Virus record (IMG/VR): IMGVR_UViG_3300043468_001857
Location: 1-36,055 of that record
Source: a virus
DNA: 36,055 nt
Direction: 5' to 3' (one strand)
Position 1 is the first letter of the stretch. Each line of letters starts with the position of its first letter. Below, piece after piece: positions 15,401 to 35,996 of this stretch. The translations under genes and the position numbers were made by a program. The notes under the pieces were generated by a model. That model did no database searches and had not been told where the DNA came from. It saw nothing but the letters and a program-made list of their open reading frames with translations.

Positions 15401-18400
15401 TTTATTAATTGAAGCAATTAGTTTTTTCTGATTAAAAACAAAATCTATAATTTTATTTTGAGTTTGCCCTAATCCTTTAATTTCATTCTCAAATGCTTCT
15501 AAAACATCTAAAGCATCACTAGGACTAAGTTTGTCTAAATATATTTTTTGAAATTTAAGTATTACTGCTTTTGTTTTATTAATTATTTTTTCAATATTGC
15601 CTTTATAACTTCCGGATGCATCTTCTTTAGATAATTCAACAGCATTATCAATTATTGACGCAAATGATTTTGCCCATTTTATTACATCTTGTAAAATTAT
15701 ATTTTTATCTGTTATAGAAGTATTAAGTATTGCTTCTAACTCTTTTAAGCTTTTTGCTGTTACAGAATTAGCTTGTTTTTCTAATTCTGCAATTTTTTCG
15801 TTAATATTTTCAACCTCATTATTTCCCAAAGACATTTCTATCTGTGAGTTAGGTTGTTGAATAACAGATTGTTCTTTAGACTTAGTTGATTTAGATGAAT
15901 CGCTTATTTTTTTAGATGATTGGGATGAATCTTGCGCAACATTAGCATACTCTAATTCTTTAATTTGTGGTAATTCAATTTTTATATTATTAACTTTTTT
16001 AGCTGCTGCTTCTAATTTTTCTAAAGATTCCGTTAATTCTTTTATTAAATTATTTAAATTACTAAAGCTTTCTAAATTGTATTTAATATTAATTTCATTA
16101 TTATTTAAGCATTTTTGAGTATCTTTAGCTGCCTCACAAATTAAATGAATATTATCCGCAATTTCCTTAGAATTAGTGCCAACAGATAATTTAAAGTTAA
16201 ATTCATTTAATGCTTGTTTAATTAAATTTAAAGATTCGTTGACAGAATTTAACAAACTTGTATCATCAATTTTTATTTCAGCTTTTAATAAATTAAGTTT
16301 TTTGTTAATTTTTTCTGCTAAATCATCAGCCGCAAAAGGAACTGATTTTAATGATTCTTCGAATTTACTTAAATCTACATTAATTTCAATTAAATTTACA
16401 GTATTAAAGTTTTCTAATATTAAATTAGAAATTTTTCTAAGATCTCCAGCTAAAGACTCTGCTTCTTTAACAGTTATCTCTATTTCATAATTTTTGTCAA
16501 AGTTGCTAAGATTTTGAATTACATTAGATGTTAATTCTTGCAATTGTCTAAAAGAATCAATATTTTTGATATCAAGACTTAGATTCTCAAATTGATTTAA
16601 AAGACTTTTTAGAGATTCTATATTTCTAGCTATAGTAGTAGAATCATTTACAAATGTCTTAAGATCAGTCAAATAACTCTTGACTTGATTCATTCCTTGA
16701 GTAAAATTAACTAAAGATGCGTCAACGTCTGCTAAATTAGATTTTACTTGTTCTTTTTGCGTTGAGGTGCCTGTTGATTCGTTTAACGCTTGGTGTCCAG
16801 AAATTACATTTCTAACATTATCTACAAGTGATGTTATTTCTTTCAATTTTTCAATTATTTGATTTGCTTGGATTAAGAAATTACTAGTATCATCAAGCAT
16901 TCCAATTTTAACTTCATTTAAATCAGAAATAGATATTATACTTTCCCTAAGCTCTTCTAATTTAGTTATAAAACTATCTACTACTGGAATGCCTTTTAAA
17001 TCTATATTTATGTCAGAATCAAAAGTATTTTTAATGCTTTTTGCAGTATTATCTAATATTTGTAAAATTTTATTTAAATTACTTAAATCTGGAGTTTGAT
17101 TAATTACAATATTTAAAGGAGTTTTTAAATTAGCAGTTAAACTTTTAACATTTTTATCAATTTCTTTTACTGCTTCATTAACAGACTGTAAATGCGTTGT
17201 TATACTTGTTTGATTTACAGCTTCCAAATCTAATTTATATTGGCGTAATGCTTCCCCTATAGCTGATATACTAGAAGTCACTTTTTGTGCTGATTGTTCA
17301 TCTACTCCAAATACAACTTTATTATCTAAAACACATTGATTATTTTCTTTTACTACTTCACAAATACTGTTAATTTGGTTAATTATTTCATTTAAATTTT
17401 GTAAATTAATATTAATGGATAAAATATTATTGCTTAAAATACTTTGTAAATTTGTCAATAACTCTGTCAATCTTTCGATAGCAGATTGCCTATTGATTTG
17501 AAAATCTAAATTAATTGATTGATTATTTGTTGCTTCTTCAATATTTAAATTTTGAAGGCTATTAATTTTTTGCTGTATATTTTCTGTTAAAGTATTGATT
17601 TGATTAGCATTAATTTTTACATTAAATTCTTCTGCTAATTTATTTTTTAAATTATCTAATACTTGAATTAAATTGTTTAAACTATCTTGAGATCTGTCAG
17701 CAGAGGATTGAATATGTTCTAAAGACTCAACAGTATTTCCTATTCGTAAATCCAAAACTTTGCTATTAACGACTTGAGTAACAGAATCAAGTAAAGAATT
17801 AACTTCATTTAATACTGTATTTGAAACATTAAAATCAATAACAACTTTATTATCATTTTTATTTATTTCATCTTGGCATTCTTTAATAATTGCTTTAATT
17901 TGAGATTCGGCAGCAGAATTAACTGCAACTTGTATAGTAATGTTTCCACTAATTTGTAAAGAATTTAATGTTGCTACTAAAGCATTAATTTGCTCTCTAA
18001 GAGCATTTGGATTATCTCCACTAAAAGAAATATTAATACTAGATAAATTATTTTGGTTAAGTTGAATTATTGCATTAATTAAATTGTTAACAGATTCAAT
18101 CCCGCCAGAAATTTGAGTATCATCTAATTCTAGAACAGCTATTTTTATAGCAGAAAGTGCATCAGCGCCTTCTCTTAATTGATCAGAAATAATTTGAATT
18201 TTTGAAGTAATATTTACTTCATCTAAATTTGCTAAATCAATTCTAGCAATAAATATATTAGAATTAGCAGATTCTATTGCTTGTTTATATGTATCTAGCT
18301 TTAATATTATATTGTTTATTAACGAATTCAAAGAAGAAATTGAATTATCGTCAAAGCTTATTTTAAATGTATTATCATCTAAATACTTTTTAATTCCTTT

Positions 18401-21400
18401 TATTGATTCAAGTATTTTAGTAATTTGTTCAATTGCTTCTTCAGAATTATTTACAGATATACTATACTCTAAATCATTATCATCAATTAATTCTTGTAAA
18501 TTACTTAAAAGATTTAAAAGTGCTGCCCTAGCATTTTCTGATTCAGGATTAAGTTGTACATTCAATGCTTGCAATTGAATGTTATCCAATACATCACTAA
18601 CAGCGTTTAAAGGATTATTTATTTCTGTAGTAATATTAATTTTTTTATCATTAATTTCTTGAATTTTATTATTTACAAAATTACTAAAATCGTTAACTTT
18701 ATTTTCTGCTGCTTTTAAAGATTCTTCAAAATTTTCATTATTAACATCTAAGTTAGAAATAATATTAAATAATACTGGAACAGATGCACTTGCTTTTAAT
18801 TCATTAATTTTTTGAGTAGCATTTTCTATTGCTTTAATACTAGATGCTAACTCTGTAGTATCAATAGACAAATTATTTTTTAAATTATTTATTTTAACTA
18901 AAATTTCATCAATTCTTAAAATTAAATTTTCATAATCAGAAAAATTAACATCTATATTATATTCTAAATCTAAAATTTGTTTAAGATTGTTTAATATTTT
19001 TGTTAAACTAGCAATTTTTTTATTATTTTCTTCAACAGCATTAGCATTAGCGGTAGCAGTAGCAGTAAAATTAGAAAAGTCACCATCGACAGAAGCAGCA
19101 ATTCTTATATCAGAAAGATCCGCAATAGTTTTTTGAACAAGAGATTTAAAACTTTCTAAATTAGCTATAGAAAGAGTAATTCCTACAGGAGTTTTTTGTA
19201 ATTCAGATTTAAATCTGTTAACTATATCTTGAGATTGCTCTAAAACATCAGCAGAAAGGTATGCTTTAACTTCTACAACTCCAATTAAAGCTAATCCAGC
19301 TAAGCTATTATTGATTTGTTCAATATTTTCAGAATAATTAGATATATCAGATCTAAAGAAAATATTAATTTCTACTGTTTTATTATTATTTAAATTTTCA
19401 ATAGTTTTTGTTAAATCATCAATAGATTGTTTAGTAGAATCTAAGTTTTCTGTATTAATAGGTCTTATATTAAGTGTAATATTTTCCAGCTCTTGTTTTT
19501 TTGCTTTTACAACTTCACATACTTCGTTAATAGCATTAGAAATATTATCTTTATCAATTTCATTAAGATTTATTCTTACAACTAAAGTATTGCTATTTAA
19601 ATATTGTTGAGTCTGTTCTACTTGATTACGTACTTCAGAAGTATTAATTTCTATTGGTTTATTATTAATTTCTGTATTAATTTCATCTATTTTAGATTCG
19701 ATACTATTTTTAAATGTATTTAAAGAATTTAATAAATCAGCACCAATATCTTCTGAAGCATTAATGTTGATGTTTTGAGTTTTACTAGATTGCAGTAATT
19801 CTAAAGAATTTATTACATTATTTATTTGTTCAACAATTTGATTTAAATTTTGACTCTGTGTTGTTATCGAAATTTCTACATCTTTAACTTCAATAAGTTG
19901 ATTTAATAGATTTTTTAAATTATTAATATCTTGAATCAAAGAAGAAGTATTTAATTCATTTATATTAAGATTGATAGAATTATTAGAAAAATATTCAATA
20001 GCATCATTTAGGATATTCTTAACTCCTCCTAACTCAGTAACTAATTTTTGCGCATTAACGTCAAAATCAACAGTAGTTTTTTGATTATCAACTTCGCTAG
20101 ATTGAGTAGGAGTAGCATTTAATGATTTTAATTTAACTTGTATATTTTCTATTGCAGTATCTAATTGAGATATAGCATTTTCGATTGAACTTTGATTTAT
20201 TGATAAAGATATTTCATTATCTAATTTTCCTTTAATTTCATCTAACTTTGTGCTTAAATTATTTATAGAAGTTTGAGCTAAATTACTATCATTAGAAGTG
20301 TCATTTAATGCTGCATTTAATTTATTTATTTCCTCTTCAACTTGAATAATAATATTTCTTAATGAATTTAAGTTATTTGATATATTGTTTATATTTACGT
20401 AAGATTCTTCTGATATATTAAATTGAATTTGTTTTTCTGATAAATTATTTAAAATACCATTTAAATTATTAACAATATCGCTAAAACTATCTTCTAATTC
20501 TTTTAATTTGTTTTTAATATTAGTAACAACAGCTAAATCTGCATTATCTGAAACTTCACTAAAAATAGTAGCAAAACTTGTTTTTATTTCTTGAATATCA
20601 TTTCTTAAAATATTAATAAAATCATTATTTATTTGTATTTGAATAGTTTTATCATTTGTTGAAATAGCTTCATCAAGGTTAAGATTGCTTAAATTATAAA
20701 CAATATTTACTGCGTGAGGATTTTGTTTTATTGCATTTATTCTTTGCTCTATATTTGTTAAATTAGTATCATTTACCTTAATATCTAATATTAAATTATT
20801 AACAATATTAAAAATATTTGTTAAATCTTGTATAAGTTTCTTTACATTAGCCTGCGAATCTGGATTTATTTGTAAAGAAATCGCCGAAGAACTGTAATGC
20901 GCTATTAAATTATTTAGATCGTTTTTTAAGCCTGATAAATTATTTTTTAAATTATTGATATTATCTAAATTTACAACAGGAGTAATTCTACCAGAATCAA
21001 AAGTATTTATTGTTTCCAATAAAACGTTTTCGGCTTTTTCTAAATCATCTTTTATTTCTTCAATATTAGATGAATCAATTAAAACTTTTGCTTCAATTGT
21101 TTTATCTTTGGAACCAGAAGATTGAGATTCTCCTTTTCCTTGGATAATAGCTTTTCCTCCTGTAAAGACTCTTCTTAATCTTTCTATTGATGTATTTATG
21201 CCAGATCTAATAACTGGTCCAAGGTTTTGCGTTATTTGCCCTAATTTACCAAAGCTACTTAAAAGCAAATTAGGAAGTTGATTTAATCCTAGCGAATTTG
21301 CATTTCCTTCTCTATTTTCTTTGCTAGAACGATTAGATGTAGTTTTTTCTTTATTGCGTTCAACAATACTACTAGTAACTTGCGACGTGTTAGATGATTT

Positions 21401-22195
21401 AGTTGTTACATTTTGCTGAATATTAATATTTTGTTTTTCTGTAAATGCTCTGCGCAATGCATTACTAGTAGACGATTTAATAACTGATTCAATTGCTGAT
21501 GATGTATTTGTTAATCCATTTCTAATTCCTTCTGTTAATCCTAGCTCAATTGATAAAGAAACTAATTCTTTTGTTTTTTCTACGCTATTTTTATCAACTA
21601 AAAAAGATACTGGTATTTCATAAGAATTAGAAGTTAAATCATCTAATTGTTTATTTAAATTATCTAATGCAGAAGAATCAACTCTAGGCTTAATAGGATT
21701 TGAAGCAAAATAATTATTAACTTCTTTAGAATGTTGTACTTTTTTGTCTAAATGTTGATTTAAATCATCTAATTCAGAATCATCTACAGTTGCCTTAACT
21801 GCAACAATAGATCCTAATGAAGTAAATGATCTTATTCTTTTTTCTAAATTATTTAATTTAGAATCATCTACATTTACTTCGATATTAACAATTTTGTTTA
21901 TCGAAGCAAGCGACTTTATTCTTTTTTCTAAATTATTTAATTCAGAATCATTTACTTTTATTTTTATTGAATTGTCGTTATAATATTTAATAGTTGCATC
22001 TAAATGCTTTTCTGCGGTTTTTAATTCTTTTGCTAAATTATTAAAGCTTGCTTTATTTGCAGAAATATTAGCTTCTAAATCTAATCCAAGAGAATCTTTA
22101 GATTTACTTATATTTGATTGAATATCTTTAATTTGTTTTTGAAAATTACTTGTATCTAATGACAGCTCAACAATTAATTTACCTAATGTAGTCAT
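3425..22195 (-). CDS. Giant tail tape-measure protein with embedded JAMM-like domain
   Basis: A 6256-residue tail tape-measure protein, the scaffold that fixes tail length and is ejected with the DNA. The N-terminus has the usual tape-measure opening (LSLDTSNFQKQIK, ~12-24) followed by ~2100 residues of degenerate Asn/Ile/Leu-rich helical repeats, beginning with a clear 28-residue repeat. Next come a helical region (2120-2600), a RadC/JAMM-like domain (about 2690-2830), a Lys/Glu-rich coiled coil (3020-3790), and the conserved tape-measure core around 4010 (LGEKFPPAMEIFAQAIGKT). Hydrophobic, Gly/Ala-rich segments lie at 4120-4310, more coiled coil at 4480-4930, TPP and NTANVIPV repeats at 5260-5480, and further coiled coil to ~6000. 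The C-terminus has the common LTPGERVLS motif (~6130). Most tape measures are 700-2500 residues, so this is exceptional. One uninterrupted frame argues against decay. Confidence 0.95.
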   Translation of the reverse strand: MTTLGKLIVELSLDTSNFQKQIKDIQSNISKSKDSLGLDLEANISANKASFNNLAKELKTAEKHLDATIKYYNDNSIKIKVNDSELNNLEKRIKSLASINKIVNIEVNVDDSKLNNLEKRIRSFTSLGSIVAVKATVDDSELDDLNQHLDKKVQHSKEVNNYFASNPIKPRVDSSALDNLNKQLDDLTSNSYEIPVSFLVDKNSVEKTKELVSLSIELGLTEGIRNGLTNTSSAIESVIKSSTSNALRRAFTEKQNINIQQNVTTKSSNTSQVTSSIVERNKEKTTSNRSSKENREGNANSLGLNQLPNLLLSSFGKLGQITQNLGPVIRSGINTSIERLRRVFTGGKAIIQGKGESQSSGSKDKTIEAKVLIDSSNIEEIKDDLEKAENVLLETINTFDSGRITPVVNLDNINNLKNNLSGLKNDLNNLIAHYSSSAISLQINPDSQANVKKLIQDLTNIFNIVNNLILDIKVNDTNLTNIEQRINAIKQNPHAVNIVYNLSNLNLDEAISTNDKTIQIQINNDFINILRNDIQEIKTSFATIFSEVSDNADLAVVTNIKNKLKELEDSFSDIVNNLNGILNNLSEKQIQFNISEESYVNINNISNNLNSLRNIIIQVEEEINKLNAALNDTSNDSNLAQTSINNLSTKLDEIKGKLDNEISLSINQSSIENAISQLDTAIENIQVKLKSLNATPTQSSEVDNQKTTVDFDVNAQKLVTELGGVKNILNDAIEYFSNNSINLNINELNTSSLIQDINNLKNLLNQLIEVKDVEISITTQSQNLNQIVEQINNVINSLELLQSSKTQNININASEDIGADLLNSLNTFKNSIESKIDEINTEINNKPIEINTSEVRNQVEQTQQYLNSNTLVVRINLNEIDKDNISNAINEVCEVVKAKKQELENITLNIRPINTENLDSTKQSIDDLTKTIENLNNNKTVEINIFFRSDISNYSENIEQINNSLAGLALIGVVEVKAYLSADVLEQSQDIVNRFKSELQKTPVGITLSIANLESFKSLVQKTIADLSDIRIAASVDGDFSNFTATATANANAVEENNKKIASLTKILNNLKQILDLEYNIDVNFSDYENLILRIDEILVKINNLKNNLSIDTTELASSIKAIENATQKINELKASASVPVLFNIISNLDVNNENFEESLKAAENKVNDFSNFVNNKIQEINDKKINITTEINNPLNAVSDVLDNIQLQALNVQLNPESENARAALLNLLSNLQELIDDNDLEYSISVNNSEEAIEQITKILESIKGIKKYLDDNTFKISFDDNSISSLNSLINNIILKLDTYKQAIESANSNIFIARIDLANLDEVNITSKIQIISDQLREGADALSAIKIAVLELDDTQISGGIESVNNLINAIIQLNQNNLSSINISFSGDNPNALREQINALVATLNSLQISGNITIQVAVNSAAESQIKAIIKECQDEINKNDNKVVIDFNVSNTVLNEVNSLLDSVTQVVNSKVLDLRIGNTVESLEHIQSSADRSQDSLNNLIQVLDNLKNKLAEEFNVKINANQINTLTENIQQKINSLQNLNIEEATNNQSINLDFQINRQSAIERLTELLTNLQSILSNNILSININLQNLNEIINQINSICEVVKENNQCVLDNKVVFGVDEQSAQKVTSSISAIGEALRQYKLDLEAVNQTSITTHLQSVNEAVKEIDKNVKSLTANLKTPLNIVINQTPDLSNLNKILQILDNTAKSIKNTFDSDINIDLKGIPVVDSFITKLEELRESIISISDLNEVKIGMLDDTSNFLIQANQIIEKLKEITSLVDNVRNVISGHQALNESTGTSTQKEQVKSNLADVDASLVNFTQGMNQVKSYLTDLKTFVNDSTTIARNIESLKSLLNQFENLSLDIKNIDSFRQLQELTSNVIQNLSNFDKNYEIEITVKEAESLAGDLRKISNLILENFNTVNLIEINVDLSKFEESLKSVPFAADDLAEKINKKLNLLKAEIKIDDTSLLNSVNESLNLIKQALNEFNFKLSVGTNSKEIADNIHLICEAAKDTQKCLNNNEINIKYNLESFSNLNNLIKELTESLEKLEAAAKKVNNIKIELPQIKELEYANVAQDSSQSSKKISDSSKSTKSKEQSVIQQPNSQIEMSLGNNEVENINEKIAELEKQANSVTAKSLKELEAILNTSITDKNIILQDVIKWAKSFASIIDNAVELSKEDASGSYKGNIEKIINKTKAVILKFQKIYLDKLSPSDALDVLEAFENEIKGLGQTQNKIIDFVFNQKKLIASINKIASKLPTTNSSTRLDDILNQSLNLKNIAKSINPTKPENLAAKYKEKLTKIQQEIIESIQKTGGVDPATINESINKALNAIEKTITNKIANSGKKIDTSFIDAFKQELINNVADANKAASSQGLDFIYNYIKNTTNVASMQDADIPSTPNQQFLQDDFIKITNLYKEVNDAFIQQIKEILPKIQSLNIDTEVFALLKTLSKYIKDNVLDVKNKLESTSESYKTAYSSTPQQSRQINQSKASAIEGIDDSYKNVGKNIVDTFESQIALLDDQSIKDEFEKVLQGIKDVFGIASPAKEIIKVAVNITKTFFDWIKDGFNSGLPTVEKTLSFILSLFRQFGEAKDIPIHLFDLDITKPALGEFRELEDYIETYKDLREKLLTDENQKRELDDYSESGKLNFINPRQNLDKIQNPYNSKKIDEIRNQKLENVIAIIMNSRGQIIEEFNAATEQHKNTAVIDIKNFFSKIYKAARKSNDKIFYSMAHNHPNKAVGASQGDHHAYAFQEIDFTARAIGKKLQGHKPIHIKQLPHIVVAGKSTAMYDSKDSWIPAITSNLKRFEKIYSQEELDKLYKQFQSDFDFYFKTLIKKYRNKDELLVGIEELREKMSLYSRKEFNNLLAKMYKDELINFKELETSGTYDGGAKTNYLLQVTTAPVNPEVNMDGSEHSGSKRTGIAEFAQLTPKAIEQNLIQNPIDYVINDSYKNVGKNIVDTFKSQIALLDYKFIKDKFKKVLQVIKNVFGIASPSKELRDVGYNVVHSYSNSVIAELAVVAHAIGKAFLNTINPSIIIKKAKETGEKVAEIREEIKKLQDKRSEKQGELESELTGLREEKIRVESISHDTSSAVLEKQASKNKKIKETEKAVSKLNEEKARIEGLTVFSEVKKKERDREIENQKKIARQPISDLEKERREISANKKLNEEDKKERIQSINQKIREKSLEVEKEIQKLEEQKQLSISEKDKTAKIEKINKQIKQKELELQKELLRLDKEITALKKNETTAEESKKKELERLDKEIAKKEAELNSMNERVNKEILKKQNQIRFNDTEALERKKESKKDEKESIKAENEDKIIDLKRKNEQLEFLKTDVTSKERRGYKKELEGYEKERKETEKKLHLELSTGNKAELRELLEFEESSFDPDTAKIENLKEKIKLIENLEAELDNIEEEIKKVNAKNERNFTVKEEKELDENIENLINKLRELKENKKIKNKNFDEFINNEIKKLEDEDRILEEEFGRTLPEDIEERKEIQEKRDKLVEKMNRLDFDERRRGYTKEQKTRDDKEIKQTQAELKSLQNERTNRQKGKIGKEQKQKYEEQIKENKASIARLEEEIKQAEKEAMQAEKDYQNASRIDKFAKLSETYGKELDNIQDKVNAIKNTEEELIDKRKEAALKLKNLSEYEKDIIQGSDEKASAEMIQSLRARSEALNNEITKEENKAKKKIEELKNQKNKLEKELDKKIKKEQKFDIKAEFSQYTQQNIRKEIKAIIEHPDLSEEEKEIKLRNFKILLEGGQVEIEQYTDPIESEETKITLVTTEDYTGFEAISAPDASVHSKIVDDIKEASLPDPEKLSEGINKLTEINGLAKIAGEEFHNAISPLIELGNTIDDTFSPLTNVFYNISDFMSILTDKIIALGEEIIKLEPSLRKINSIVGEAKSGKEIDFAINASKQYNVSISDGLEAYGQLLAAAQNTKLEGQGIQDLYKGIASSINALGITGKDVTYILLAYTQILAKGKLSMEELRQQLGEKFPPAMEIFAQAIGKTIPELIDLTSQGAILSADILPNVGKILRARYEGSAQNASGLAITLTKLQNIGTEAVLHIIDSFELLIGIIPKAIINIADSFSILTNAIKGVTSAAIILSIAIAGIALLIAPAIFSGITASLAASTSLKGVIAVLQTSFPSTFKIIGIASGAAFHNGLNEFFGGRNPLKIITNAFSFISEYLSISLKPVLNTFKEFAKSISPVFSFLGGAFKGIFTVTAVHTIIQFLSKMASIILSQAIPAVIKLGSAFFSTFITIGLTSIKKIKISIGSLAKGAASLAITFGTLFLSAADFSVPFKEGFNDISKSIENAANAFRDFNNELKKTKGNKPNFSAYQSIPSKGFQLNPFVVIGVQGEEESYVEDERRKRINYAAHLVKSGKMSPEQLKDYYDEQVERGNLGSTYQPLTWFDKGYGSFKRQVDIGAHDENKPKVYTKNQIKIAKELGMYGTIVRDTDYDALESVKMFLNNMLELKDSIEKDLFKEVEDNIKELKKYNQDKDSNFSQDKTKINKLINKQKELSEKRQKAFESNDEKEIDRIDKEYSNIEKEKQSIISRYSSKYKELENVKETLIKQKELAEKLFPGFKVGSFFDELIKKIDTFSKQYKDLLPKGAIPEIESRYTKIVSNLNKFTKAYDEYLQELEIESNEKEAEIYKNLDKGTISQSDADIQLLNLKINQLNKTFDAIDNEIKTKTQALNLLNSIPSSELGESDKERIEELQKEINKAKVDRSKASVDISKANLDLRNKIKDAKKQIEDYNLAVQKQIEDARFELRKAVIELNNRFSGKTLKLLLKGMGDNELTQLAQVVSEFITEINELALEKIQQEQKALEDARKDIEDKRKLSEAIQLLGKSANENVNAIKNFAQQSTATFKKLFEESFKELERLRKEMKFTNKQVSYIEESVDKTGKSMNRLGSGVLSLNRNLSDSVYKFALIKNYLSNIGSSKIVTISVQSNRQNTPNNNLPGNILPPIRPSRVSNPSSIQIANNNTGFNQGVKIASASLNLIGYERGNTSSSFNSSNRLNPKDYINFRKNNENEIALGFLKPKSKPLRYQAIPHDDNPTLEERLKTEEAMYNRLRNISNYRSSPINPNVEQIFLNVIQRSSYNQIVDFLNNPKYNNAKTTNYGMPEKEKRHFTLEAVKKRNEEREKLNFGDHAKNFGSRIPVIGGVIGDVVGTPLNILENYFLNKQESNRIPQHSKQIVPTLRKLNLRSVNSLDSQSILKLGNELGKARSIPKQELVFPTESVTLTPPIIDNLKKIGLTEEAPVPPKKPFTLTPPIINNLKKIGLIGDVPLDSFLDDLFDKSLDVFLTPPNKTKKRKTHVPLDSVVNDFLDDLSDDSLQDFLTPPNKTKKWQRNPVLGTIITKEEENYANNLLNNSQIKIHEVKGLVLDIVKTLQGTGTTPASNTANVIPVNTANVIPVNTASVRTASNTANVIPVNTANVIPVNTASVRTVSNTTATGDPLLILVTRIISILDSATKCLCSHSNPTTGFQGPMPGLTSVSTNSTIKVPVSSQPSNIPQDLVIQQQALDAERKRRRLEDAKLLRDNLEDQIQTIKNNILQQDSTANKQSEIEKITQDLDKIINNNTSLDSLSIIEQSKSDFDSAKESVKKLITEKTNLSNALKSIDKIFGEYRKTIQSQVKEGIISENDGNNLIKTMNDTLESSKLEVKKRLNIIDSKLPELEKKLKQARTRVDQIVSQNRKVTPDEKQKQELERALEIDQRSLNQKEKELESIKQDPEKQDKILSTLNDITALKRKINDQQAEIQFLQEKIKVSLSTSGLTQDKIAEEVKKAESIRDKQKQNNNTQAIIETTLNEIQTNKDKTNLKILEAEAFGKDQTIEKLNIDLRVLDLKEKIQTAVLPQEEKDRLTRAVEGLAKIQKENLDYEQTKRFEESKIQTKLLTIQNYRNSGGNEFVANAQERDIKIKQKEKEYEKEKEDIENDPNLDDQQKKERKEEAKAKRDAEIKEIENSAKSVVASIRDLIRNSLINDLSAGLTDVIMGVEKLDDVLNNLARNMLSGLINIAIKSLMQSLVGAGGILDSLFKSIGGIFGGNSGGEVPSANDGGEVFSQYKGGVIKNYAGGGIIQSLNEAIVREKAANGGITPVVAVLTPGERVLSVADNAKFQSMGLDKVIKNNNIESVMNYAMGGNVSNSELKVRNIMNFASGGVIPPSPGIGNINQPTTNTTVNVPITIESQDGDKSPSIDPNAMQNAIKTAVIVEIQRQQRQGGILKR
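5766..5930 (-). repeat. Nested 24-bp/75-bp tandem repeat in the tape measure
   Basis: A 75-bp unit starts at 5766, 5841 and (partial) 5916. Each full unit consists of one 27-bp segment plus two 24-bp segments (GTATTTACAGGTATTACATT and four more bases). The reading frame is kept, giving repeats of NTANVIPV broken by NTASVRTxS. It would form a low-complexity linker near residues 5420-5480 and is a likely site of length variation. Confidence 0.9.
6090..6420 (-). repeat. Diverged TPP-containing repeats in the tape measure
   Basis: Four copies of a short segment, DNA core TTGGAGGAGTAAGA on the plus strand, encode LTPP flanked either by NLKKIGL or by DLFD/DLSD and NKTKK. The pattern is Pro-rich and probably extended. 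It sits just before the NTANVIPV repeats, so the two form one flexible region between coiled coils. Confidence 0.7.
13175..13317 (-). repeat. Direct duplication, copy downstream of the JAMM domain
   Basis: This 143-bp segment matches 14525-14667 at about 93% identity with no gaps (about 10 mismatches counted by eye). The two copies are exactly 1350 bp (450 codons) apart and in the same frame. Both encode a segment beginning DSYKNVGKNIVDTF and ending in a GIASP(S/A)KE motif common in tape measures. The JAMM-like domain lies between them. Confidence 0.9.
13680..14290 (-). other. RadC/JAMM-type metalloprotease-like domain inside the tape measure
   Basis: Within the tape-measure frame, residues 2746-2759 read HNHP, six residues, then S-Q-G-D. 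This fits the zinc-binding JAMM signature H-x-H-P-x6-S-x2-D exactly. A candidate catalytic Glu is Glu2690, in a strand reading LENVIAIIMNSRGQ, 56 residues upstream; RadC proteins have a similar order and spacing. After the motif, HIVVAGKSTAMYDS resembles the RadC strand that follows the metal site. JAMM domains are known in tail-tip proteins such as lambda gpK, but placement in the middle of a tape measure is unusual. The fold call is from motifs only. Confidence 0.75.
14525..14667 (-). repeat. Direct duplication, copy upstream of the JAMM domain
   Basis: Partner of the copy at 13175-13317. Translated, this copy reads DSYKNVGKNIVDTFESQIA and runs on to GIASPAKE. The DNA identity is as high as the protein identity, which suggests a recent duplication or gene conversion rather than long-term selection alone. 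Confidence 0.9.
21820..21990 (-). repeat. 28-residue tandem repeat at the tape-measure N-terminus
   Basis: The segments NNLEKRIKSLASINKIVNIE and NNLEKRIRSFTSLGSIVAVK begin 84 bp (28 codons) apart, each ending in VDDS(K/E)L. More diverged copies appear to continue through much of the first 2100 residues (recurring NDSEL / NNL / LN motifs). This suggests that the tape measure grew by repeat duplication. Confidence 0.75.
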
Positions 22196-28262: not shown

Positions 28263-28328
28263 AGTGAGAAAAGTTGATTTCGGGAAAGTAAGAAAGTTGA
28301 TTTCGGAGAGTGAAGAAAGTTGATCTCG
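28263..28328 (+). repeat. Three iteron-like 23-bp direct repeats
   Basis: Copies at 28263, 28287 and 28309 share AGTxxxGAAAGTTGATTTCGG, the third with GATCTCG. The GTTGAT cores lie at 28273, 28296 and 28319, exactly 23 bp apart (about two helical turns). The segment between genes at 28212-28347 otherwise holds only AT-rich sequence. Such spacing is typical of iterons at plasmid origins or of operator arrays. Confidence 0.75.
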
Positions 28329-28347
28329 AATCTATATACAGATATCA

Positions 28348-28542
28348 ATGCAAAGAAAAAAAATAAATATAAGAGAAAAGTCTTATTTGACAAGAGTTAG
28401 AGAATTTTGGGGAGGTGTACAAGAGTCCGGAAACAAAGAATTCTTCTCTGGTAAAAATCTTAGTCTTTCGGAAGATGGGACAATCCGTCTTGAACGAAAG
28501 ATTATCCCGCGCTGCGACTTGTCAAGTAGTGTTGGTGATTAG
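28348..28542 (+). CDS. Possible 64-residue protein
   Basis: An ATG-initiated frame right after the iteron-like repeats. The product begins with a basic segment (MQRKKINIREKSYLTRVRE) and is otherwise featureless. No Shine-Dalgarno sequence is visible, so it is either leaderless or not a gene. A 6-bp hairpin follows 10 bp after the stop. Confidence 0.35.
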   Translation: MQRKKINIREKSYLTRVREFWGGVQESGNKEFFSGKNLSLSEDGTIRLERKIIPRCDLSSSVGD

Positions 28543-30499: not shown

Positions 30500-31036
30500 A
30501 TGCAACTTAAAGTTTTAAATTCTAATAGATGGTCTAAAGAAGAATGCAGAAAAAAGTACATAGAAGATATTTCTGTGTCTTTAAAAGCCATTTCTATTTT
30601 ATCTGGTGTTCCTAAGCCCACCCTTGAGAAATGGTCTAAAGAAGGCAATTGGGTTTCTGATAAAAAAGAATATCACAAGGACCCTAATACTAATAATAAA
30701 ACTAATCAAGAATTATCTGATATTGCAACTAATAATTATAAAGTTCATTATCAATTACTTGCTTATGCTGCCAAGATTGTTCAATACAAAATAGCTGATC
30801 TCGCTAGGGTTGATTCTATGTCCCCTGACGAACGCATGGAATACATTAAATTAGAACACGATCCTCACGAGATGGATGCATGGTCTCGTATCATCTTTCG
30901 CGCTACTGAAGCTATCTCTAAAGTCACTGGTCTTCAATATTATTCTGATGTCAATGCCGCTATTAAACGTATTGAAAAAGAAGGTCTTGGTATCGTTGAT
31001 TTGTCTATGATGCAAGACTCTCATGATGAGAATTAA
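30500..31036 (+). CDS. Small-terminase-like HTH protein
   Basis: A 178-residue protein with an N-terminal helix-turn-helix at about residues 26-50: SLKAISILSGVPKPTLEKWSKEGNW. The pattern of a helix, GVP, TLxKW and W before a basic helix is the one seen in many phage small terminase subunits, which recognise the packaging site. The rest is mostly helical (LLAYAAKIVQYKIADLARV; DAWSRIIFRATEAISKVTG), as expected for an oligomerisation part. No large terminase follows; the next 5 kb is the cassette array, so a general phage regulator with this HTH is the alternative. No Shine-Dalgarno sequence is seen before the ATG. Confidence 0.55.
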   Translation: MQLKVLNSNRWSKEECRKKYIEDISVSLKAISILSGVPKPTLEKWSKEGNWVSDKKEYHKDPNTNNKTNQELSDIATNNYKVHYQLLAYAAKIVQYKIADLARVDSMSPDERMEYIKLEHDPHEMDAWSRIIFRATEAISKVTGLQYYSDVNAAIKRIEKEGLGIVDLSMMQDSHDEN

Positions 31037-31278: not shown

Positions 31279-31302
31279 AAAAAAGACCCCAGGTGGGGCC
31301 TT
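31279..31302 (-). terminator. Terminator of cassette 1
   Basis: On the minus strand GGCCCC, ACCT, GGGGTC and then TTTTTT: a classical intrinsic terminator 6 bp after the gene. The same stem appears in cassette 2. Confidence 0.9.
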
Positions 31303-31307
31303 GGAGG

Positions 31308-31823
31308 TTATAAGCTCCGATAATACGGAGAATTTACTTCCGGTTTATCACTTTCATAAAAATACACCAGGACATCTTGTATCCATGTTACGTATTTAGC
31401 ATTCCCGCCATTACGGAAACTAATTCCGCTAGTACTCGCTTCACCCCCAAGGGTATACCTTCTAAAGTCTTCTATGAAGACATAGTCTTCATCGGTGTCA
31501 GCATCCCATAACTTCGCTTTGCCATTTGCCATAAGCTCATGAATATCATATTCGGACATATGGTAAGCAATAAAATTACTGTTATCCCCAAAATGTCCAC
31601 TAGGAATCGCTTTAGAGCTCTTTAGCTGATCTTCATTATACATGAAGATGGTGTCTTTAATTAGGGCCTCATATTGCACTTCGCCAGTGCAATATGTGTG
31701 CATGATAAATTCAAATTTGCATAAGCGGTCTACTGGAGAGACCCAGTGGATCTCACCGAATTCAATTAGAGCAAAGACCTGACTATCACTCAACGGTACC
31801 GTATATCCTATGAAGTTATCCAT
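31308..31823 (-). CDS. Cassette 1 protein, unknown function
   Basis: A 171-residue acidic protein. I start it at the ATG at 31823, which has GAGAGG 7 bp upstream; the frame can be opened five codons earlier but without a ribosome-binding site. Two copies of the motif shared by the array are visible: YTVPLSDSQVFALIEFGEI near the N-terminus and IAYHMSEYDIHELMANGKA in the middle (aromatic, then Leu/Met, Ser, acidic, then IxxLIxxG). The second half carries many Asp and Glu (DADTDEDYVFIEDF). No known family is recognised. It has its own promoter and terminator and is the cassette nearest to the phage genes. Confidence 0.75.
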   Translation of the reverse strand: MDNFIGYTVPLSDSQVFALIEFGEIHWVSPVDRLCKFEFIMHTYCTGEVQYEALIKDTIFMYNEDQLKSSKAIPSGHFGDNSNFIAYHMSEYDIHELMANGKAKLWDADTDEDYVFIEDFRRYTLGGEASTSGISFRNGGNAKYVTWIQDVLVYFYESDKPEVNSPYYRSL

Positions 31824-31836
31824 ATTTTTGCCTCTC

Positions 31837-31852
31837 AATCAATTTTTTGATT
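31837..31852 (-). promoter_or_regulatory. Leader hairpin of cassette 1
   Basis: AATCAA, loop AAAA, TTGATT in the 5' leader, between the -10 box and the Shine-Dalgarno sequence. It stands where cassettes 3-5 have their GAAA-loop hairpin. Confidence 0.55.
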
Positions 31853-31860
31853 ACATATTT

Positions 31861-31889
31861 ATCCTATTGGAGACCTATTTTTTTGTCAA
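31861..31889 (-). promoter_or_regulatory. Promoter of cassette 1
   Basis: Minus strand: TTGACA (31889-31884), 17 bp, TAGGAT (31866-31861). The spacer (AAAAAATAGGTCTCCAA) is identical in cassette 2. An upstream element, ACTGAACTTTTTTAGGTAT on the plus strand (31911-31929), lies 21 bp above the -35 box and recurs in the other cassettes. Confidence 0.85.
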
Positions 31890-31935
31890 CCTATTTTTTG
31901 AATTTTTTCCACTGAACTTTTTTAGGTATTTTTTT

Positions 31936-32111
31936 ATCCTAGGGCTAGATATCCTAGGGGTAATATCCTAGGGCTAGATATCCTAGGGCTAGATATCCTA
32001 GGGGTAATATCCTAGGGCTAGATATCCTAGGGCTAGATATCCTAGGGGTAATATCCTAGGGCTAGATATCCTAGGGGTAATATCCTAGGGCTAGATATCC
32101 TAGGGCTAGAT
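31936..32111. repeat. 14/15-bp palindromic minisatellite, 12 units
   Basis: Twelve units of two kinds, A = ATCCTAGGGCTAGAT (15 bp) and B = ATCCTAGGGGTAAT (14 bp), in the order ABAABAABABAA, followed by a broken unit (ATCCTATAAG). Each holds the palindrome CCTAGG. Cassette 2 has a single TATCCTAGG at the same place, so the array is probably a local expansion of that seed. Confidence 0.95.
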
Positions 32112-32341
32112 ATCCTATAAGAGTCTGGACTACATCCGACTAAGCGGCACTAGTCAAGTCAACCCCAAAGTGCAACTACGTTTAGCTACATCCGACTAAG
32201 CGCAATTAGTCAAGTCAACCCATTGCAAGGCGTAAATGCTTTTGCGGATGCGAACGTGAGCATAGCCTTTGGTGTGGGTGCATGCGCTCCAGACTTTATA
32301 ATCTATACTCTAATCCGGACTTGACTAAGCGGTTATGCTAT
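32112..32341. repeat. Spacer between cassettes 1 and 2
   Basis: Holds two start-type flank repeats (CTGGACTACATCCGACTAAG then CGGCACTAGTCAAGTCAACC, 32123-32164; a shorter copy at 32184-32220), one GCGCTCCAGACTT unit near 32284, and the end motif AATCCGGACTTGACTAAGCG at 32312. No gene is seen in the 550 bp between the two cassette genes. Confidence 0.85.
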
Positions 32342-32365
32342 AAAAAAGACCCCGGGTGGGGCCTT
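32342..32365 (-). terminator. Terminator of cassette 2
   Basis: Minus strand GGCCCC, ACCC, GGGGTC, TTTTTT; almost identical to the cassette 1 terminator. Confidence 0.9.
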
Positions 32366-32373
32366 GGAGAAGG

Positions 32374-32829
32374 CTAGCAATCCTCCTCTATCAACAATTT
32401 CCAACTAGATTTAAAGAAGAAGTATCTGTATTCTTTTGTGTCCAGATAGAATATATCTTCTCCGTATTCGTTCACCGCTAAAGCGAACTCAGTCAGAGGA
32501 TGATATGTCCCGCTTAAACAGACAGTGTCGTCTAGGTACAAGTCGGAAAGTTCCTCTTCGTCAAGTTCCCACCAATCATTGGTGGGTGGTAGTTCAATCA
32601 TTCTTTTATCTATATCTATCATATCCATAGCGTCTTCATAGTTGGCTTGTCTATACCAATACAAGCGGGAGTAAGCTCCCTCCTGCACTTCACATATAGA
32701 CAGATTGTCTATTTCATAGACATTATCTAGCCTAAGGACATCGTCGGTCTTTTCATGTACGTACGTTTCATACATACATAGTTTAATCAACTCAGCTTCG
32801 TCTAAATGAATCCATTCAATCAATGACAT
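32374..32829 (-). CDS. Cassette 2 protein, unknown function
   Basis: A 151-residue, strongly acidic protein. GGAG lies 6 bp before the ATG. Both copies of the shared motif are clear: EWIHLDEAELIKLCMYE at the N-terminus and DWWELDEEELSDLYLDD in the middle. Each is followed by a stretch of predicted strands (LSICEVQEGAYSRLYWYR; EDIFYLDTKEYRYFFF), so the protein looks like two related modules of about 75 residues. Its C-terminus LLIEEDC is nearly repeated by the partial gene at 36032 (LIEEDYQ). No known family is recognised; an acidic DNA-mimic or protein inhibitor is conceivable. Confidence 0.78.
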   Translation of the reverse strand: MSLIEWIHLDEAELIKLCMYETYVHEKTDDVLRLDNVYEIDNLSICEVQEGAYSRLYWYRQANYEDAMDMIDIDKRMIELPPTNDWWELDEEELSDLYLDDTVCLSGTYHPLTEFALAVNEYGEDIFYLDTKEYRYFFFKSSWKLLIEEDC

Positions 32830-32864
32830 AACCTACTCCATTTGTTTTTTTATTGATTACATTT

Positions 32865-32893
32865 ATCCTATTGGAGACCTATTTTTTTGTCAA
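32865..32893 (-). promoter_or_regulatory. Promoter of cassette 2
   Basis: Minus strand: TTGACA (32893-32888), 17 bp, TAGGAT (32870-32865), identical to cassette 1 across the spacer. The upstream element is at 32915-32933. Confidence 0.85.
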
Positions 32894-33330: not shown

Positions 33331-33356
33331 AAAAAAGCCAGACCCGGAGGTCTGGT
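33331..33356 (-). terminator. Terminator of cassette 3
   Basis: Minus strand ACCAGACC, TCCG, GGTCTGG, C, TTTTTT. Cassettes 3-6 share this stem, distinct from that of cassettes 1-2. Confidence 0.9.
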
Positions 33357-33364
33357 GAGAAGGG

Positions 33365-33817
33365 TTACAGGAATATGGATGCTATCTCCTCATGAGACAG
33401 AATCCAGTATTGACTACCTTGATACAAAATCCACTGAAGAACGTCATGATGACGTTCTTTTACAAATTGCAATTCGACTAAATTGTCCCAATTTGGGGAT
33501 GTTTCGTCGTCCCCAATTATTTCACGTCCGATTTGCTTTTCCCTGTATGAGAGACAATATGATCGGGTATACGCCCACGCATTATTTATCGCGAAGGCAT
33601 CCTGATCAGTCAATTGTATTTGATGGAAATCCCCCAAATGTTGGTATCCTGCTTGTAAAAACCATTTACGTTTTTTCCAGCAGAATTTCATTCGGGAGAA
33701 TGGGAATTCTCCTAATTTCAATAACTGAGTCATTAACTCTTGTCTCTCAGTTAAAAAATAGAAATCGCGCTCGTGATTGCGATTGTGCGGAAAGGGGTTA
33801 AAAAAAATACTAGCCAT
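33365..33817 (-). CDS. Cassette 3 protein, unknown function
   Basis: A 150-residue protein. The GGAG Shine-Dalgarno sequence stands only 3 bp before this ATG, whereas the other cassettes have 6-8 bp, so either the spacing is damaged or a TTG at 33826 is used. One motif copy is in the middle (HQIQLTDQDAFAINNAWAY), and a second, YWILSHEEIASIFL, is the very C-terminus. In cassettes 1, 2 and 5 a copy stands at the N-terminus, so this protein looks permuted or truncated compared with them. The N-terminal third is basic (RMKFCWKKRKW). No family is recognised. Confidence 0.65.
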   Translation of the reverse strand: MASIFFNPFPHNRNHERDFYFLTERQELMTQLLKLGEFPFSRMKFCWKKRKWFLQAGYQHLGDFHQIQLTDQDAFAINNAWAYTRSYCLSYREKQIGREIIGDDETSPNWDNLVELQFVKERHHDVLQWILYQGSQYWILSHEEIASIFL

Positions 33818-33840
33818 ATACTCCAAGTGTTATTAATTTT

Positions 33841-33854
33841 TGGTTTTTCAACCA
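33841..33854 (-). promoter_or_regulatory. 5'-terminal GAAA-tetraloop hairpin, cassette 3
   Basis: On the minus strand UGGUU-GAAA-AACCA starts 7 bases after the -10 box, so it should be the first structure of the mRNA. It is identical in cassettes 4 and 5 while the genes differ. Confidence 0.7.
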
Positions 33855-33861
33855 TATCTGA

Positions 33862-33890
33862 ATATTAAACCCAAAAAAAATTATTGTCAA
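33862..33890 (-). promoter_or_regulatory. Promoter of cassette 3
   Basis: Minus strand: GTAG-TTGACA (33890-33885), 17 bp, TAATAT (33867-33862). The upstream element is at 33912-33930. Confidence 0.85.
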
Positions 33891-33930
33891 CTACTTTTAT
33901 AGCTATTTTTTACTGAACTTTTTTAGGTAT

Positions 33931-34204
33931 ACTTTAATCTAAGTAACAATATTTTAAGAATCTGGACTACATCCGACTAAGCGGAGTTAGTCAAGACGGC
34001 ATAGCTGCGCTATCAAGACTAGATGATTTTGCGGACATAAACGCGCTCCCTTTAAACTCAGATTTAGTGCGTGCGCTCCAGACTCAATGCGTGCGCTCCC
34101 TTCAGACTCAAACTCAATGCGTGCGCTCCAGATTTAGTGCGTGCGCTCCAGATTTAGTGTATGCGCCAGACTTAAATCCGGACTTGACTAAGCGGTTTTT
34201 GTAT
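33931..34204. repeat. Spacer between cassettes 3 and 4
   Basis: One flank repeat (CTGGACTACATCCGACTAAG, from 33962), several GCGCTCC-type units (34048-34170), and the end motif AATCCGGACTTGACTAAGCG at 34175. No gene in ~420 bp; a plus-strand open frame here only translates the repeat. Confidence 0.88.
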
Positions 34205-34230
34205 AAAAAAACCAGACCCGGAGGTCTGGT
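34205..34230 (-). terminator. Terminator of cassette 4
   Basis: Minus strand ACCAGACC, TCCG, GGTCTGGT, TTTTTT. Confidence 0.9.
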
Positions 34231-34240
34231 AAAAGAAATT

Positions 34241-34714
34241 TTAGTATTCTAGCGCGCGAATGGCATCATGCACTAATGGGTCAACTTTTACCCAGGATGG
34301 GTCCTTAAATAAAAGGACAATTCTGTCAGTTTCAGTTTCTATTGATATAGAAACCTTTTTGCTAGTAATATCAACCGGAATGATCTCGTAACGAGATTGC
34401 TTGTTATAAGCCTTGTGGCCCCAGCCTTGCCAGTCTTCCACATGCCATGAGTAAGTCACTCCGGATGGATTCTCCAAGAGAATATATGCGACTGGCTTTT
34501 TCAACCAGTCCGAATAATTAAGTCTTTTAAGAATAAAAAACTCACCCACATGGTGCAGCTCTGTGTAAGCTGCGTTGTTACTCAACAATACTCTGGCATC
34601 GTCTGCCAGAGTAAATTCTTGATAGTCAAAGCCTTTGGTGAAAGTCCCCTTGGCTTCTTTAGCGGAAAAGCCAGATTCTTGAGAGATTGAAATCAATGGT
34701 AAGTAGTAAGTCAT
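34241..34714 (-). CDS. Cassette 4 protein, unknown function
   Basis: A 157-residue protein. The ATG at 34714 is chosen because GGAG lies 8 bp upstream; the frame stays open 15 codons further but into the leader hairpin. It has one recognisable motif copy, QEFTLADDARVLLSNNAAY, and then mostly predicted strands (EFFILKRL; VAYILLENPSGVTYSWHV; KVSISIETETDRIVLLF). It is the most divergent member and the least acidic. No family is recognised. Promoter, leader hairpin and terminator match those of cassettes 3 and 5. Confidence 0.75.
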   Translation of the reverse strand: MTYYLPLISISQESGFSAKEAKGTFTKGFDYQEFTLADDARVLLSNNAAYTELHHVGEFFILKRLNYSDWLKKPVAYILLENPSGVTYSWHVEDWQGWGHKAYNKQSRYEIIPVDITSKKVSISIETETDRIVLLFKDPSWVKVDPLVHDAIRALEY

Positions 34715-34748
34715 TGTATGAACTCCATGTGTTGTGTGTTGTTTTTTT

Positions 34749-34762
34749 TGGTTTTTCAACCA
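34749..34762 (-). promoter_or_regulatory. 5'-terminal GAAA-tetraloop hairpin, cassette 4
   Basis: UGGUU-GAAA-AACCA on the minus strand, 7 bases after the -10 box; same as cassettes 3 and 5. Confidence 0.7.
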
Positions 34763-34769
34763 TGATTAG

Positions 34770-34798
34770 ATAGTAATCCCAAAAAAAATTATTGTCAA
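34770..34798 (-). promoter_or_regulatory. Promoter of cassette 4
   Basis: Minus strand: GTAG-TTGACA (34798-34793), 17 bp, TACTAT (34775-34770). The upstream element (ACCGAACTTTTTTAGGTAT) is at 34820-34838. Confidence 0.85.
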
Positions 34799-34838
34799 CT
34801 ACTTTTATGATTATTTTTTACCGAACTTTTTTAGGTAT

Positions 34839-35137
34839 AAAATAAATATAAGTATTATTCTAGGTCTGGATATTATATAGATATCCGGGTCAATAACAAA
34901 ATCTGGACTACATTCGACTAAGCGGAATTAGTCAAGTCAACCCTAAAATTCATGTATATAAAATCTGGACTACATCCGACTAAGCAACACTAGTCAAAGC
35001 TATGTATTTATGCTATTAAATAAAAATAACTTTTTATCTGTGGGTGCGAACGCGCTCCCTTCAGACTTAATGTATGCGCTCCAGACTCAATGTATGCGCC
35101 AGACTTAAATCCGGACTTGACTAAGCATTTATTGTAT
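34839..35137. repeat. Spacer between cassettes 4 and 5
   Basis: Two flank repeats at 34902 and 34963 (61 bp apart; the second has decayed to CTAAGCAACACTAGTCAAAG), then a few GCGCTCC/ATGTATGCGC units (35048-35105), and the end motif CCGGACTTGACTAAGC at 35111. No gene in ~460 bp. Confidence 0.85.
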
Positions 35138-35165
35138 AAAAAAACCAGACCTGAAAAGGTCTGGT
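35138..35165 (-). terminator. Terminator of cassette 5
   Basis: Minus strand ACCAGACC, TTTTCA, GGTCTGGT, TTTTTT. Confidence 0.9.
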
Positions 35166-35172
35166 GGGAGGT

Positions 35173-35640
35173 TTAACTGTAAAACTCGTCTAATACCTCC
35201 TCTAGCTGTTCGGAATCAAAGTAGTATCTTACACTCTCGGTATCGAGAGTGTAAGTAAACCAATCGAAAGATTCATAACTTGAGTCAAAGTCACTCAAGT
35301 AATAAACTTCATTTTCAATAAGAAGTCCTTTCTGAATCAAAGTTAGAATATCGACATTGTTCAAATGCTGAAAACCGACGGGACTATCGATATTATTGTC
35401 ATCTGTCTTAATTCTCCGTTGTAAACTCTCCACATCTTGAGAGTTTGCCCAATAGATGATAACATTTACATTATCAATATATACATAGGTGTATATACTG
35501 GCAATTTTTTCCATTCTGCTGAATAAAATGGAAATAGAATTGAACTCCGTTAAATCTATATGTCGATATCTTACAAGTTGGAAGATCTCGATTTCATTTA
35601 GTTGAACCCAGACAATGTTCTTGATAGTCGTGTATTTCAT
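35173..35640 (-). CDS. Cassette 5 protein, unknown function
   Basis: A 155-residue acidic protein with GGAG 6 bp before the ATG. The motif is present twice: VWVQLNEIEIFQLVRYRHI near the N-terminus and GFQHLNNVDILTLIQKGLL in the middle. Each is followed by predicted strands rich in Tyr and Ile (IYTYVYIDNVNVIIYW; WFTYTLDTESVRYYF). The layout matches cassette 2 best, and both end in a run of acidic residues. No known family is recognised. Confidence 0.78.
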   Translation of the reverse strand: MKYTTIKNIVWVQLNEIEIFQLVRYRHIDLTEFNSISILFSRMEKIASIYTYVYIDNVNVIIYWANSQDVESLQRRIKTDDNNIDSPVGFQHLNNVDILTLIQKGLLIENEVYYLSDFDSSYESFDWFTYTLDTESVRYYFDSEQLEEVLDEFYS

Positions 35641-35663
35641 AGCTTACTCCATGTGTTGTTTTT

Positions 35664-35677
35664 TGGTTTTTCAACCA
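35664..35677 (-). promoter_or_regulatory. 5'-terminal GAAA-tetraloop hairpin, cassette 5
   Basis: UGGUU-GAAA-AACCA on the minus strand, 7 bases after the -10 box. Confidence 0.7.
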
Positions 35678-35684
35678 TATTTGA

Positions 35685-35713
35685 ATACTAGTCCCAAAAA
35701 TAAATATTGTCAA
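35685..35713 (-). promoter_or_regulatory. Promoter of cassette 5
   Basis: Minus strand: GTAG-TTGACA (35713-35708), 17 bp, TAGTAT (35690-35685). The upstream element has decayed here (35735-35753). Confidence 0.82.
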
Positions 35714-35753
35714 CTACTTTTATAAGAAATTTCTACTTAATTTTATAAAGTAT

Positions 35754-35996
35754 ATTTTATTTTAAGTACTATGCTAGGTCTGGATATTATATAGTCTGGA
35801 CTACATCCGATTAAGCAATATCAATCAAATCAACGCAACTATGCTATCAGAATTGGGGGATTTTACATACATAAACGCATCCCCTTCAGACTTAATGTGT
35901 GCGCTCCAGACTTAATGTGTGCGCTAGACTTAATGTGTGCGCCAGACTTAGTGTGTGCGCCAGACTTGACCGGACTTGACTAAGCACTTATTGTAT
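35754..35996. repeat. Spacer between cassettes 5 and 6
   Basis: One decayed flank repeat (from 35794), four GCGC-type units with AGACTTAATGTGTGCG (35886-35965), and the end motif CCGGACTTGACTAAGC at 35970. No gene is seen. Confidence 0.82.

Follow-up and report, generated by a model that had tools for sequence, protein, structure and literature searches.

A repeated 5'-proximal hairpin in the leaders of a cyanophage gene array, a possible mRNA-stabilising stem-loop

Three of the five cassettes in a gene array on a 36,055-base viral contig (record IMGVR_UViG_3300043468_001857, the whole of which is referred to as the window) carry the same 14-base dyad, TGGTTGAAAAACCA, exactly 7 bases past the -10 box of a promoter whose -10 box is spaced 17 bases from TTGACA (cassettes 3, 4 and 5; Table 1). 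From the sequence, position, computed fold, duplication and conservation of this dyad we infer, tentatively and at somewhat less than even confidence, that it forms a 5'-terminal stem-loop that would shield the three mRNAs from decay in the manner of the Escherichia coli ompA and papA leaders. This idea is plausible and ordinary, and the original prediction that proposed it is partly supported.

The leader hairpin and its array

The array comprises five minus-strand genes of 150–171 codons, each with its own promoter (TTGACA-17-TANNNT), Shine-Dalgarno sequence (SD; GGAG or GAGG type) and intrinsic terminator, and a sixth unit truncated at the contig end. The encoded proteins are barely alike (19% identity between cassettes 2 and 5, E = 0.006), and none gave a significant match in Pfam, PHROGs or PADLOC; an Rfam search returned nothing credible, and the predicted structure of the cassette 5 protein was unusable (pLDDT 34). 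The intergenic regions are made of repeats. Tandem 14–15-nt units (ATATCCTAGGGCTAG / ATATCCTAGGGGTA) occupy positions 31934–32117 upstream of the cassette 1 promoter, and an inter-cassette element of ~61 nt (TCTGGACTACATCCGACTAAGCGGCACTAGTCAAGTCAACC) occurs nine times between 32110 and 35841, together with many repeats of the GCGCTCCAGACTTA type; neither the ~61-nt element nor the GCGCTCCAGACTTA-type repeats were found in other viral contigs.

Table 1 Positions of the array features and of the linked candidate small RNA in the window.
Feature	Position	Strand	Remarks
Cassette 5 leader hairpin	35664..35677	-	TGGTTGAAAAACCA; RNA +2 to +15
Cassette 4 leader hairpin	34749..34762	-	identical TGGTTGAAAAACCA
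Cassette 3 leader hairpin	33841..33854	-	identical TGGTTGAAAAACCA
Cassette 2 leader stretch, equivalent place	32842..32861 (approximate ends)	-	no stem possible
Cassette 1 leader hairpin	31836..31853	-	TAATCAAAAAATTGATTG; different sequence, same offset from -10
Cassette 5 promoter	35685..35713	-	TTGACA-17-TAGTAT
Cassette 4 promoter	34770..34798	-	TTGACA-17-TACTAT
Cassette 3 promoter	33862..33890	-	TTGACA-17-TAATAT
Cassette 2 promoter	32865..32893	-	TTGACA-17-TAGGAT
Cassette 1 promoter	31861..31889	-	TTGACA-17-TAGGAT
Promoter-leader block, cassette 5	35660..35768	-	family D7; 81–83% identity over 109 nt between cassettes
Promoter-leader block, cassette 4	34745–34853	-	family D7
Promoter-leader block, cassette 3	33837–33945	-	family D7
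Cassette 5 gene	35173..35640	-	155 aa, no family match
Cassette 4 gene	34241..34714	-	157 aa, no family match
Cassette 3 gene	33365..33817	-	150 aa, no family match
Cassette 2 gene	32374..32829	-	151 aa, weakly similar to cassette 5
Cassette 1 gene	31308..31823	-	171 aa, no family match
Cassette 5 intrinsic terminator	35144..35165	-	
Cassette 4 terminator	34211–34230	-	similar to cassette 5's
Cassette 3 terminator	33338–33355	-	similar to cassette 5's
Cassette 2 terminator	32346–32365	-	similar to cassette 5's
Cassette 1 terminator	31283–31302	-	similar to cassette 5's
Small-RNA promoter	31158–31130	-	TTGACA-17-TAATAT
Candidate small RNA, about 52 nt	about 31123–31070	-	sigma70 promoter, 5' part AUACUCCAGUUGUUUUU, intrinsic terminator

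The exact 14-mer has three minus-strand copies and no other in the window, precisely as the original prediction had placed them. Similarly, GGTTNNNNAACC occurs three times, always at the cassette 3–5 leaders (0.29 expected; three reached in 0 of 100 shuffles). With +1 predicted at the A that stands 7 bases beyond the -10 box, the stem starts at +2 and the RNA would begin A-UGGUUGAAAAACCA (A-UGGUU-GAAA-AACCA), with one unpaired base, a 5-bp stem and a GAAA loop. RNAfold returned.(((((....))))) at -4.7 kcal/mol for all three leaders, bearing out the 5-bp stem with a GNRA loop that had been proposed for the transcript start. An equally stable hairpin within 4 bases of the 5' end arose in 1.3–4.5% of dinucleotide-shuffled, composition-matched leaders. 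The layout, which suits a protective 5' stem-loop, runs from the predicted start site through one unpaired base, stem and unstructured A-rich run to the SD, and the cassette 3 and 4 leaders are predicted to be open 3' of the hairpin.

All three copies lie inside one duplicated ~109-nt promoter-leader block, so their identity by itself shows descent: as judged from these alignments, the hairpins are one ancestral duplicated block and not independent. The identical hairpin on unrelated mRNAs that had been claimed is thus exact as to identity, and reflects common descent of the block rather than independent recurrence. Alignment of the three leaders gave invariant positions at 14/14 in the hairpin, against 7/13 in the -10/discriminator and 7/21 in the 21 downstream bases, making the hairpin the best kept part of an otherwise diverging leader; the -35 and spacer are well preserved too (29/35). 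This pattern suggests that the sequence has been held by selection, be it as DNA, RNA or peptide, or recently homogenised.

Sister leaders, related phages and other genomes

Across the array, cassettes 3–5 are identical in the hairpin, cassette 1 pairs with another sequence and cassette 2 is unpaired. The cassette 1 leader, UAAUCAAAAAAUUGAUUG, forms 7 pairs including one U-G at -3.4 kcal/mol (matched by 0.6% of shuffles), so that the different hairpin described at the same place is present at the same offset. When its 5' arm is aligned to UGGUUGA, both partners differ in three of the pairs (two G-C become A-U, and one U-A becomes C-G), and such two-sided changes relative to cassettes 3–5 would, under that alignment, favour RNA pairing. 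The cassette 2 leader, AATCAATAAAAAAACAAATGGAG, which the original prediction did not mention, is stemless (0.0 kcal/mol for its first 30 nt and -0.9 for the leader as a whole): it has the 5' arm of cassette 1, lacks the 3' arm and does not fold. Because its promoter block is nearly the same as that of cassette 1 (99% identical over 87 nt, repeat family D5), the hairpin is dispensable or not general. The argument for function conserved over sequence draws on cassette 1 alone and is contradicted by cassette 2, a homologous leader that breaks the stem, which the prediction itself had named as evidence against it.

We surveyed 35 distinct leaders (promoter, SD and open frame) from this and related phages. 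A 5'-proximal hairpin of -3 kcal/mol or lower was present in five, four of them the leaders of cassettes 1, 3, 4 and 5; outside the array, one leader of 30 had such a hairpin, weak and involving its SD region. Since the leaders of related phages start unstructured, we rejected the idea that 5' hairpins are typical of the phage group in general. A start-region motif like AGTATGAAC or AGTATCAAC recurs just past the -10 box at many promoters of Cylindrospermopsis phages Cr-LKS4 and CrV-01T, without hairpins.

These two phages were also the top matches among sequenced phages to the FtsK-like gene of the window (39.6% identity, 91% covered), which is 98% identical to the FtsK of several other viral contigs, and they carry FtsK, tape measure, dCTP deaminase and lipase genes in the same general genome part. 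By this match and gene content, the window is a fragment of a tailed cyanophage of the CrV-01T / Cr-LKS4 kind. Judged against related Cylindrospermopsis phages (9.0–13.3 kb there), a minus-strand open frame at 3425–22195 (6256 codons) occupies what is likely the tape-measure position, and so is unusually long. A 62-bp stretch at 28313–28374 has a 95% identical counterpart at another location in two related phage contigs. Close relatives follow the window at 95–98% identity as far as 27,565, where their contigs end; a more distant relative keeps the gene at 30500–31036 (80% protein identity), and its next ~430 bases, the last it has, differ and lack the array. The array at 31.3–36 kb is therefore a variable region on the phage arm.

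No homologous array was detected by the promoter-plus-hairpin pattern (viral contigs and 84,980 genomes), by the inter-cassette elements or by neighbouring proteins, nor by the proteins of cassettes 2, 4 and 5, each compared with some of the collections. The promoter-plus-hairpin scan of viral contigs gave 7 matches, none with flanking sequence in common with the array. In the 84,980 genomes, a promoter with GGTTGAAAAACC at equal offset was found at 25 places, none homologous to the array, and this number is not above chance since the collection holds ~10^8 bacterial promoters by our order-of-magnitude estimate. Ten of these 25 places lie 5–13 bases before tRNA genes and after strong promoters, mostly in Clostridia, where GGTTGAAAAACC would be a possible 5' hairpin on tRNA precursors; several are orthologous and tRNA promoters are the best matches to consensus, and we therefore make no claim on them.

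Function of the repeated hairpin

In the mechanism that we tentatively favour, a standard unit of upstream A-rich block, sigma70 promoter, hairpin, unstructured A-rich spacer, GGAG SD and start codon was duplicated together with the genes of the array. The mRNAs of three phage genes would open with TGGTTGAAAAACCA, which, provided that it folds in the cell as computed, would form a GAAA-capped stem-loop at the 5' terminus, preceded by a single unpaired base. The free 5' end would be too short for pyrophosphohydrolase and for 5'-end-dependent RNase E while the ribosome-binding region stayed open, and through these two effects each monocistronic, terminator-capped message would be longer-lived.

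RppH and 5'-end-dependent RNase E require single-stranded 5' ends, so that 5' structures stabilise mRNA, and purified Bacillus subtilis RppH requires at least two unpaired 5' bases (PMC3997798). The cassette 3–5 leader is predicted to have one, below the minimum of the B. subtilis enzyme; the enzymes of cyanobacteria may behave differently. These end requirements we counted in favour of the stabilising reading, along with the position, fold and invariance of the hairpin, the rarity of such hairpins outside the array and the differently paired leader of cassette 1. Transcript stability in Synechococcus PCC 7002 tracked with U-tract 3' terminators, whereas stable transcripts showed no enrichment of any upstream motif (PMC7406221); the array cassettes also end in such terminators. 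We counted these Synechococcus data against the stabilising reading, together with the stemless cassette 2, the single ancestral block and the modest size of a 5-pair hairpin. If protective, the hairpin would give cyanobacteria a reusable 5' stabiliser of phage origin; parts of this kind are in demand there, and little work has addressed how 5' ends control mRNA decay in these hosts. The phage would then also be spreading a standard leader along with new accessory genes. As an operator, or as no more than a promoter block that was duplicated, it would be ordinary.

The main rival, which we regard as rather doubtful, is a DNA operator, in which a dimeric phage helix-turn-helix regulator would bind the TGGTT-GAAA-AACCA dyad (+2 to +15) and block the promoters of cassettes 3–5 together. 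The 14-bp dyad is perfectly palindromic (5-4-5) and as long as 434-type Cro/C1 operators, it overlaps the predicted transcription start, and it is confined to those three promoters; but the palindrome of cassette 1 is wholly different and cassette 2 has only half, so that one regulator could not serve the array, and the additional degenerate sites that operator sets usually include are lacking. HTH_3 (Cro/C1-type) proteins are encoded by related phages (up to five matches each), whereas no HTH_3 gene was found in this contig, itself a fragment, and none of seven related phage records contains the dyad.

It is also unlikely that the dyad has no function of its own and is a single chance product of an AT-rich leader that was copied with the promoter block. 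The leaders do lie within duplicated blocks, shuffled leaders form such a hairpin at the frequency given above, and cassette 2 does without one; yet all 14 bases are unaltered in three copies whose adjacent bases are altered, and an unrelated hairpin stands at the same place in cassette 1. We consider very improbable a leaderless upstream reading frame from +1, AUG GUU GAA AAA CCA AAA (MVEKPK...NTWS), whose translation would regulate the main gene. An AUG stands at the predicted +1 of cassettes 3, 4 and 5, and the distances from it to UGGAGU differ by multiples of three only, so the frame is kept, although this coincidence has a chance of about 1/9 and synonymous changes are lacking. The cassette 5 stop overlaps the main start as AUGA, but the cassette 3 and 4 versions extend far into the main gene in another frame, and in cassettes 1 and 2 UAA directly follows the AUG. 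Put-type antitermination, as in HK022, was dropped because it relies on a pair of adjacent, longer stem-loops.

A complete small transcription unit lies between the array and the gene at 30500–31036 on the same strand and ends in a strong terminator hairpin (-15.1 kcal/mol). The 5' part of this candidate RNA, AUACUCCAGUUGUUUUU, is predicted to pair with the SD and A-rich spacer of cassettes 2 (-16.7 kcal/mol), 3 (-14.5), 4 (-13.8) and 5 (-17.1), and less with that of cassette 1 (-9.9). The observed pairing sum was reached in 4 of 2000 shuffles keeping ACTCC, and among 138 background gene starts 7 paired as well as cassette 2 and 3 as well as cassette 5. As the targets are paralogous, this pairing is a lead and not a result. 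We hold it improbable that the array consists of standardised cassettes (promoter, 5' hairpin, SD, gene and terminator) co-regulated by the linked small RNA through pairing with cassettes 2–5 just downstream of the hairpin.

Comparison with known leaders and operators

The T7 gene 10 leader combines a strong phage promoter, a 5' hairpin, an A-rich spacer and an SD, and the array leaders are like it in promoter strength and in the other three elements. The T7 leader has a T7 RNA polymerase promoter and a different sequence, and the likeness carries no claim of homology. The array dyad and 434-type Cro/C1 operators are both 14-bp dyads at a phage promoter; unlike those operators, the array dyad is a single site with a different half-site and a putative binder only.

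The stabilising 5' stem-loops of E. coli ompA and papA mRNA place a hairpin at the 5' end or within a few bases of it, with an open ribosome-binding region behind it (references in PMC3997798), an arrangement that is also predicted for the array leaders. By comparison, the array hairpin is 5 bp long at about -4.7 kcal/mol, belongs to a cyanobacterial phage, is missing from one sister leader and is known here from sequence. In Cluster K mycobacteriophages, the start-associated sequence is a 13-bp motif, GGGATAGGAGCCC, located at the start codon, and about half of its occurrences have imperfect 17-bp inverted repeats (ESAS) upstream; like the array, these phages set near-identical repeated leader elements, some with inverted repeats, before many different genes (PMC3203893). 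The 13-bp GGGATAGGAGCCC motif with ESAS was not found in the array sequence. ESAS have imperfect 17-bp arms and a variable spacer, and are linked to the 13-bp start-site motif (PMC3203893), whereas the array hairpin has 5-bp arms, a fixed loop and a position set by the promoter, not by the start codon.
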